A stretch of 64,000 nucleotides of DNA from Thermocrinis albus DSM 14484 (GTDB taxonomy: Bacteria > Aquificota > Aquificia > Aquificales > Aquificaceae): NCBI RefSeq assembly GCF_000025605.1, contig NC_013894.1, positions 295,529 to 359,528 of the forward strand, read 5' to 3'. Below are positions 24,798-26,299 of this stretch, piece by piece. The notes beneath the pieces are model-generated. The model made no database searches and was not told the DNA's origin. It was given only the letters and a program-made list of their open reading frames with translations. Made by a program: the position numbers and the translations under genes. The stretch's first letter is position 1. The number at the start of each line of letters is the position of its first letter.

Positions 24798-25601
24798 TCA
24801 CCGTGAGCCCTTTATCTTTAAAATTATCTGAGATACCTCCGCCGCCTTCTGAGGATCCATCGCCTCCAGTATGGAAGCTGCCTGTCTCTCCTTGAGTCTT
24901 ACGAGGATCTGGGCCACCAGATGAGGGTCCATGTTGTTCATTATGGCACCCGCCTCATCGGGGGAAGCTTTGTTGAAGATATTCACCAGTTTCTCCACGT
25001 ACTCTTTGCTCCTTTCCTCTTGAGGTTGTTGTCTCCTCAACATGTTTAGCCTCTTCTTCTCTTCCTCCAACCGCTTTAGCTTAAGATCTATGTCTTTGGA
25101 TATCTCTGTCAGACCCTCCTCCACCACCCTCCTTTGCTGCTCCTTCATCTTCTTCTGAAGTGCTCCTTCACCCCCAGCCGTTCCTACTATGAACAGGAGG
25201 AGAAGCGATGCCTTTCTCAGCATATGTAAGAAGGAGACGCCCGTTATCTCCCTCTTTAGCAAGGTAGCCTCCTCCTCCCTCTTTCTGTTTCTGCAGAGGA
25301 TTCTAAGGGCCTGTATGTCTATCATAACATCCTCGAGGGATCTTAAAAGCTCCTCTCTCTTGGTTTGTAGTGCCATCAGCTGGCGGTAGACATCCCTCTT
25401 CTTGGCAGAAAGAGATGCGTACCTTGTCCGTACCTTCTCGGAGGGATCAACCTTGAACCCATCATTTACCAGTTCCATTTCCTTCACCAACTCTCGCAGG
25501 AGGCTCTCAAGACGAGCTATATCGCTGTCCAGCATCGTCAACTCCCTTCTGATCTCCTCCTTCCTGCTTTCCATCAGCCTGAGAAGTTTCTCAGGGTCCA
25601 T
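24798..25601 (-). CDS. FliJ-like / MotE-like fusion protein
   Basis: This 267-residue protein looks like two flagellar proteins joined. Residues about 1-125 are a charged coiled coil of FliJ type, the soluble export chaperone/stalk component. A hydrophobic segment (SLLLLFIVGTAGG, about 132-144) follows, then another coiled coil and a C-terminal helical MgtE-N-like domain (ASPDEAGAIMNNMDPHLVAQILVRL, quoted in part) typical of MotE, a periplasmic chaperone of the stator protein MotC. With the hydrophobic segment in the membrane, the FliJ part would be cytoplasmic and the MotE part periplasmic. There is no frameshift or internal stop. Each half matches a normal free-standing length. Flagellar genes flgD/flgE occur in the window but not nearby. 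Confidence 0.65.
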   Translation of the reverse strand: MDPEKLLRLMESRKEEIRRELTMLDSDIARLESLLRELVKEMELVNDGFKVDPSEKVRTRYASLSAKKRDVYRQLMALQTKREELLRSLEDVMIDIQALRILCRNRKREEEATLLKREITGVSFLHMLRKASLLLLFIVGTAGGEGALQKKMKEQQRRVVEEGLTEISKDIDLKLKRLEEEKKRLNMLRRQQPQEERSKEYVEKLVNIFNKASPDEAGAIMNNMDPHLVAQILVRLKERQAASILEAMDPQKAAEVSQIILKIKGSR

Positions 25602-25618
25602 GGTAATATTTTAGAACC
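25602..25618. promoter_or_regulatory. compact divergent promoter, FliJ-MotE / response regulator
   Basis: Only 17 bp separate the two ATGs. The core TAATATTTTA (25604-25613) is near-palindromic. TATTTT ends 6 bp before the plus ATG and TAAAAT ends 6 bp before the minus ATG, so both messages would be leaderless. The same core recurs at 40556-40565. Confidence 0.5.
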
Positions 25619-26299
25619 ATGCCCAGGATCCTTCTGGTGGAGGACGATCTCTACTTAGGGCAGATGATGGTGGAGGGGCTCAGACACGAAGGATTCACTG
25701 TGGAATGGGTTCAGGACGGCTTTACTGCCCTCAGGCGTGTGGTGGAAGAGAACTACGATCTTGTAATACTGGACATAATGCTTCCTAAGTTTGATGGCAT
25801 GAAAGTTTGCAGAAAGATAAGAGAAACGAAGGATATACCCGTCATCATGGTCACCGCAAGGTCGCAGATAGAGGACAAGGTAGAGGGTCTATCTGCGGGG
25901 GCAGACGACTACATAACAAAACCCTTCTCCTTCAAGGAACTCTCCGCACGCATACAGGCCGTGCTGAGAAGGTACAGGAAAAAAGAAGGGGTGATAATGG
26001 TGGGAGATCTGCGCATAGATCCCTCTGCGGTAGAGGTTACCTACAGAGGGCAGAAGATACACCTCACCCGTAGAGAGTTTGAACTTCTGAAGCTTCTTGC
26101 CGAAAACGCCAACAGGGTAGTCAGCAGGGAGGAGATATACGCCAAGGTCTGGGGATACTCTCACGAGGAAGGATCCAACATAGTGGACGTGTACATAAAG
26201 AATCTTAGGAACAAACTGGGGGACAAACCACCACGCCTCATACAGACGGTGAGGGGATACGGTTACATACTGCGTACAGAAGATGTCGGTCAGACTTAA
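25619..26299 (+). CDS. OmpR-family response regulator
   Basis: This 226-residue two-component regulator has an N-terminal receiver domain: acidic pocket ED at 8-10, phospho-acceptor Asp52 in LVILDIMLP, Thr in VTAR and Lys in ITKPF. The C-terminal winged-helix DNA-binding domain (about 128-222) includes LTRREFELLKLLAEN and VRGYGY. It overlaps the histidine kinase gene by 17 bp, so the two form a cognate pair. The signal and regulon are not visible in the sequence. Confidence 0.93.
   Translation: MPRILLVEDDLYLGQMMVEGLRHEGFTVEWVQDGFTALRRVVEENYDLVILDIMLPKFDGMKVCRKIRETKDIPVIMVTARSQIEDKVEGLSAGADDYITKPFSFKELSARIQAVLRRYRKKEGVIMVGDLRIDPSAVEVTYRGQKIHLTRREFELLKLLAENANRVVSREEIYAKVWGYSHEEGSNIVDVYIKNLRNKLGDKPPRLIQTVRGYGYILRTEDVGQT

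Follow-up and report, generated by a model that had tools for sequence, protein, structure and literature searches.

A FliJ-FlgY/MotE fusion gene predicted in Thermocrinis albus and recurrent among Aquificota

The window analysed here, a stretch of 64,000 nucleotides from Thermocrinis albus DSM 14484, carries on its minus strand a single uninterrupted ATG-to-stop frame of 267 codons; the plus-strand translation of the same segment contains stops. The predicted protein opens with a coiled-coil half (residue 1 to about residue 118), which is followed by a hydrophobic core at residues 131-144, then by a second helix and finally by an MgtE_N/ARM domain (Table 1). An earlier note on this DNA had described one 267-residue frame holding a coil, a membrane-type segment and a MotE-type domain, and this description was borne out, with the addition that the strand, left unstated there, is the minus one. 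On the evidence of the sequence, the FliJ and MotE/FlgY families are almost certainly fused in frame in this one gene. No Shine-Dalgarno core precedes its ATG, and just 17 bp (25602-25618) separate this start from the divergent start of a response-regulator gene (25619-26299, plus strand). The T. albus genome, a single contig of 1,500,577 bp, also encodes FliI, FliH, FliG, MotB and flagellin. The organism is described as motile, with a monopolar monotrichous flagellum, in the available text of PMC3035279.

Table 1 Features of the fusion gene and their positions in the window.
Feature	Position	Strand	Basis or remark
Very probable fliJ-flgY(motE) fusion gene, 267 aa	24798..25601	-	One ATG-to-stop frame; architecture shared by 42 Aquificota genomes (of 87 with a match)
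FliJ-like half, residues 1-118, antiparallel helical hairpin	25248..25601	-	Pfam, family profile, AlphaFold2 model
Hydrophobic core, residues 131-144, ASLLLLFIVGTAGG, R-K just before; putative internal signal sequence or membrane anchor	25170..25211	-	
Possible signal-peptidase sites AGG-EG and GTA-GG (cut at the hyphen)	End of the core, 25170..25211	-	
FlgY/MotE/YlxF-like half, long helix and ARM-like domain	24801..25169	-	PF03448 MgtE_N, Foldseek
ARM-like (MgtE_N) domain, residues 195-266	24804..25019	-	Pfam MgtE_N, AlphaFold2
Candidate internal start TTG, codon 114	25260..25262	-	AGGAGG 8 nt upstream (25271-25276); not conserved among relatives
Internal ATG, codon 127, immediately ahead of the hydrophobic core	25221..25223	-	Without Shine-Dalgarno

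The C-terminal half scored 33 bits against Pfam MgtE_N (PF03448, cut-off 25.9). In the AlphaFold2 model of the whole protein (mean pLDDT 84.5, pTM 0.43, the mutual arrangement of the parts being unsure) this half forms a long helix (residues 147-191) followed by a small helical ARM-like domain, and a Foldseek search against the PDB returned FliG, 9a67_B (a FliF-YlxF model) and MgtE, each at E 0.019 or weaker. According to the available text of PMC13023049, flgY most often adjoins fliJ or fliK; the T. albus C-half is fused to FliJ, and in relatives the two are separate neighbours. From the MgtE_N score, the model, the Foldseek matches and the published adjacency, the C-half is identified by homology as a MotE/FlgY/YlxF protein, a component of the flagellar E-ring. 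The designation of this half as a stator chaperone in the earlier note is outdated, the protein now being known as an E-ring component.

The identity of the N-terminal half required a wider comparison. The T. albus half alone scored 11.6 bits against Pfam FliJ (PF02050), under the cut-off of 28.4, with other coiled-coil families equal or better, and purpose-built FliJ profiles gave 15.3-18.7 bits, values that the best of the coiled-coil controls also reach. Because its own score falls within the upper range of these controls, its membership in the FliJ family rests on relatives. In a Pfam search with 21 N-halves, FliJ was the most frequent family (12 of 21 at E <= 1, best 5.2e-4), and TIGR02473 FliJ matched three of 17 whole fusion proteins (best 8.4e-5). 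None of the 41 genomes of a first set of relatives contains a FliJ over the Pfam cut-off, and the full-span FliJ matches found there are the fusion gene itself. Among 136 Aquificota genomes the cut-off was exceeded in 12, of which 11 were inspected: a separate overlapping motE came next in eight, a fusion was present in one (G120), and two had no motE next door. The profile of the Aquificaceae fusions (residues 3-119) matched the stand-alone FliJ of genome G112 (C8:508-864) at E 4.7e-9, and this protein itself reaches 42.5 bits against Pfam FliJ. The G120 fusion (L093, 332 aa) lies directly after fliI, and its FliJ half, at 29.5 bits, exceeds the cut-off; in T. albus adjacency to fliI is absent, fliG-fliH-fliI being followed by another gene. 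Genome G120 (C116, C64) contains, besides the fusion, another MotE-like match in a 167-aa frame of its own.

An Aquificota FliJ profile built without sequences of the Aquificaceae (family f1) gave the fused N-halves a median of 25.5 bits, with 30 of 36 over 20. The corresponding values were 4.7 for reversed copies, none of 43 exceeding 20, 5.3 for windows of long coiled coil, with 5 of 158 above 20, and -1.2 for the C-halves. As an intentionally severe control we used PF02050 matches in frames of about 900-1200 aa, which probably represent coiled coils from unrelated families. AlphaFold2 predicted for T. albus two helices (3-51 and 55-141) in an antiparallel hairpin with high pLDDT, a fold common to many proteins. 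PDB profile searches with the fusion and with its N-half found no FliJ structure among the matches listed, which were mostly unspecific coiled coils, and FliG for the C-half, an absence that does not exclude FliJ; nor was there a FliJ structure among the listed fold matches of the model. The VIA-align fold matches, mostly hairpins of unrelated proteins, were set aside. By homology, the N-half is to be regarded as FliJ by descent. The profile comparison of both halves proposed in the earlier note yielded FliJ homology for the one and MgtE_N over the cut-off for the other, and the FliJ-type N-half is upheld by profile homology to a certified FliJ. That the N-half might be MotE's own coil is ruled out by this match and by its existence as a free gene.

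The same fusion, which the earlier note had proposed to look for in relatives, is widespread. A profile search of the 136 Aquificota genomes gave a match in 87, and 42 of these hold the fusion: 38 Aquificaceae from seven genera (g1 5, g2 1, g3 4, g4 5, g6 16, g9 2 and g10 5), three genomes of family f2 and one of f5 (G120), the frames of G033 and G120 having been read individually. Eight genomes of genus g11, a sister clade within the Aquificaceae, have the halves as separate genes. G027 (contig edge) and G043, G067 and G077 (partial) were left out of this tally, and the other 33 of the 87, from f3, f4 and f5, have the two genes separate or match in one half only; a minority of these were inspected individually. 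The first set of relatives gave a match in 28 of its 41 genomes; stop-to-stop frames held both halves in 16 of 18 Aquificaceae genomes (a 19th, G018, was dropped for a weak, chance-like match) and also in f2 (L020, L025, L027), and in f3 and two genomes of g11 the halves lay apart. A further 24 contig loci, partly overlapping with the Aquificota genome set, comprised 19 fused and five separate cases. Elsewhere in Aquificota, fliJ and motE are overlapping neighbours. The recurrence of the fusion across genomes rules out a sequencing error or a random read-through. The earlier view that both halves are of normal length is upheld. Separate genes combined with a sequencing error had been named as a possible explanation; the former do occur in the sister clade, but the error does not hold, since the fused state is widespread.

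Several loci deserve separate mention. In three f3 loci (L022, L024 and L054, from G040, G038 and G030) motA-motB-fliJ-motE form one run, so that the FliJ/E-ring pair stands alongside stator genes. In L086, L089, L090, L094, L099, L101, L104 and L109 (f4, f5) a gene of about 340-390 aa, PilZ-type-like by eye, immediately precedes fliJ. Five genomes of genus g7 (G012, G020, G061, G062, G063; 99% listed completeness) gave no match to the fusion or to either half, and the genus is perhaps without flagella. At G067:C60:15286-15687, a frame of 175 aa holds two match pieces (1-86 and 222-267) spaced by 9 nt, which looks like a deletion of the middle part with the hydrophobic core. L076 (RFFP01000017.1), labelled an Acidobacteria MAG, carries an fliJ-motE locus of the Aquificaceae type with the same neighbours, so this contig is probably mis-binned.

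The first split in the tree separates f3, with separate genes, from f1 and f2, with fused ones, and one separate-gene clade lies inside f1; f5 contributes the one further fused case, G120. T. albus was grouped with the separate-gene clade (94/86, unstarred) on a long branch, and a constraint holding the split rows together was not rejected (p 0.31). The two share locus neighbours, here named by eye: a radical-SAM-like gene, a small membrane protein, a DUF309-like gene and dnaE. The T. albus junction aligns without gaps with that of most other Aquificaceae fusions, which favours the view that T. albus kept the fusion rather than rejoining its parts. The free FliJ of the separate-gene clade retains an F-x-H-L-I-K/R-like end motif, the same motif that stands before the core in the fusions, suggesting that the separate genes of this clade arose secondarily, by fission of an older fusion.

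The fate of the protein would be decided at the joint, where signals of topology and of cutting can be read. The core is positively flanked before the segment (positive-inside order) and short, with a median of 13 residues in 33 fusions. It has a small-x-small, signal-peptidase-like end in 22 of 33 fusions and in 13 of 23 separate motE genes; among other internal hydrophobic segments whose N-side is positive, 12 of 61 satisfied the same rule. Two family members, L057 and L058, were contained in this control set, one of them among the 12, and after their removal 11 of 59 controls remained (Fisher p 9e-6 versus fusions, kinship ignored). The motif count hinges on an automatic core-end rule, by which L012, L018, L067 and L081 were misplaced and left as counted; a wider motif rule (29 of 32) is too lax for meaning. 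The small-x-small end is absent altogether from the Thermocrinis fusions L006, L007 and L008, and in the sister clade three of seven separate motE have a proline ahead of the expected cut. It is unusual for a signal sequence to follow some 125 cytoplasmic residues. According to the available text of PMC13023049, a membrane anchor is retained in two thirds of FlgY homologues, and this was counted against cutting, together with the missing motif in L006-L008, the prolines and the unusual signal position.

Based on these data, we consider that the protein has about an even chance of being made as one chain and then cut into FliJ and an E-ring protein with separate work sites. A single chain would be translated, and its FliJ half would fold in the cytoplasm. 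The short internal hydrophobic segment would then engage the Sec machinery, bringing the C-half to the periplasm, and in the majority of these species signal peptidase I would most likely cut behind this segment. Each round of translation would in this way supply one FliJ and one released E-ring subunit, working at their own sites; the FliJ product would bear a hydrophobic tail, perhaps to be trimmed afterwards. That the C-half is translocated, that the chain is cleaved and that the halves work separately are steps that we infer. Four observations favour cutting: the motif, the shortness of the core, the existence of a clade in which the proteins are separate, and the poor match of an E-ring to an export stalk in copy number and location. 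We nevertheless put the chance of a cut at only about even.

If the chain stayed uncut, a periplasmic ring of FlgY dimers would carry a cytoplasmic ring of FliJ coils via the short membrane segments, linking the E-ring to parts of the export apparatus or of the rotor. We regard this as possible though somewhat doubtful. It agrees with a single frame without a conserved internal start, with the positive-inside order ahead of the segment, with the lack of a signal-peptidase-like end in the three Thermocrinis fusions, with the anchor retained by most FlgY homologues and with the position of the fliJ-motE pair directly behind motA-motB in f3 genomes. Number and place speak against it. An export gate has about one FliJ and is located inside the MS-ring collar. 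The E-ring, by contrast, has 13 to 17 copies of its symmetry unit in measured species (available text of PMC13023049), 17 dimers in Campylobacter, whose ARM domains surround the MS-ring collar, and it lies outside that collar (available text of PMC11870540); by this published geometry an E-ring protein would hold its FliJ outside the rotor wall, away from the export gate. Moreover, the sister clade copes with both proteins made from separate genes, so the covalent link is not indispensable. A standing export-stator bridge, as envisaged in the earlier note, is not supported: the segment also resembles a cleavable signal, the halves are separate in a whole clade and the geometry fits poorly. An intact protein is still well conceivable, most of all for those Thermocrinis that lack the motif, and we would only tentatively propose that the uncut protein spans the membrane many times round the rotor, giving the E-ring a crown of cytoplasmic FliJ coils and coupling E-ring assembly to export.

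Two other explanations appear improbable. The gene could yield both the full-length protein and a FlgY from an internal start. In T. albus the search for internal starts near the membrane segment, suggested in the earlier note, did produce candidates, TTG 114 with its AGGAGG and ATG 127 right before the core, but the TTG site is not conserved in relatives. A 6-nt Shine-Dalgarno core precedes only 17 of 1650 internal start-like codons, TTG 114 being among such sites; its AGGAGG, however, is a portion of a run of GAG codons, and ATG 127 has no such core. Just five of 32 fusions have a start codon preceded by a Shine-Dalgarno core, so an internal start is no family feature, and in 10 of 32 the tested stretch holds no candidate start at all. 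It is likewise improbable that the N-half descends from FliJ but has lost its export role and now serves only as a cytoplasmic anchor or spacer for the E-ring, export proceeding without FliJ. The low FliJ score and long branch of T. albus, the distance of the gene from fliI there, and the joining of the C-terminal end of the N-half to a membrane-directed segment would suit such a loss. It is opposed by the 41 relatives, whose only full-span FliJ matches are the fusion gene, with nothing elsewhere over the cut-off, by the fliI-fliJ order kept in G120 and by the free FliJ-sized protein of the sister clade.

FliJ (PF02050, TIGR02473), the coiled-coil stalk of the flagellar export ATPase, resembles the N-half in length, hairpin and profile homology, in the fliI-fliJ order of G120 and in its position right before motE. 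It differs in that the fused half runs on without a stop into a signal or anchor segment and a periplasmic domain, and in that the T. albus half by itself stays under the Pfam cut-off. With FlgY/MotE/YlxF/FlbB (COG3334, PF03448) the fusion shares the signal or membrane segment, the long helix, the ARM-like domain over the cut-off and the fliJ neighbour, whereas it bears a whole FliJ ahead of the segment at which the members in the available text of PMC13023049 begin. The separate overlapping fliJ-motE pairs of f3, f5 and genus g11 have the same order and homologous products, and the g11-type clade also the neighbours of T. albus, but consist of two frames, motE having its own start.

FliJ, FlgY and the adjacency of their genes are already known. 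In the accessible literature on the flagellar proteins FliJ, MotE, YlxF and FlgY we found no description of their fusion: the words 'Aquifex', 'Aquific' and 'fusion' are all absent from the available main text of PMC13023049, and that of PMC11870540 lacks 'Aquific' and mentions no FliJ fusion. Should the protein remain uncut, it would be a covalent tie of the export stalk to a periplasmic motor ring, described in no paper found within that accessible literature. The fusions also offer proteins of thermophiles for a direct test of the link, namely whether the chain is cut or intact and whether FliJ still functions when tethered. The occurrence of the fusion in at least seven Aquificaceae genera and two other families strongly suggests that FliJ and the E-ring protein are required jointly, be it in number, in time or in place, and it bears on the role of the E-ring and on the adjacency of flgY and fliJ in many phyla.
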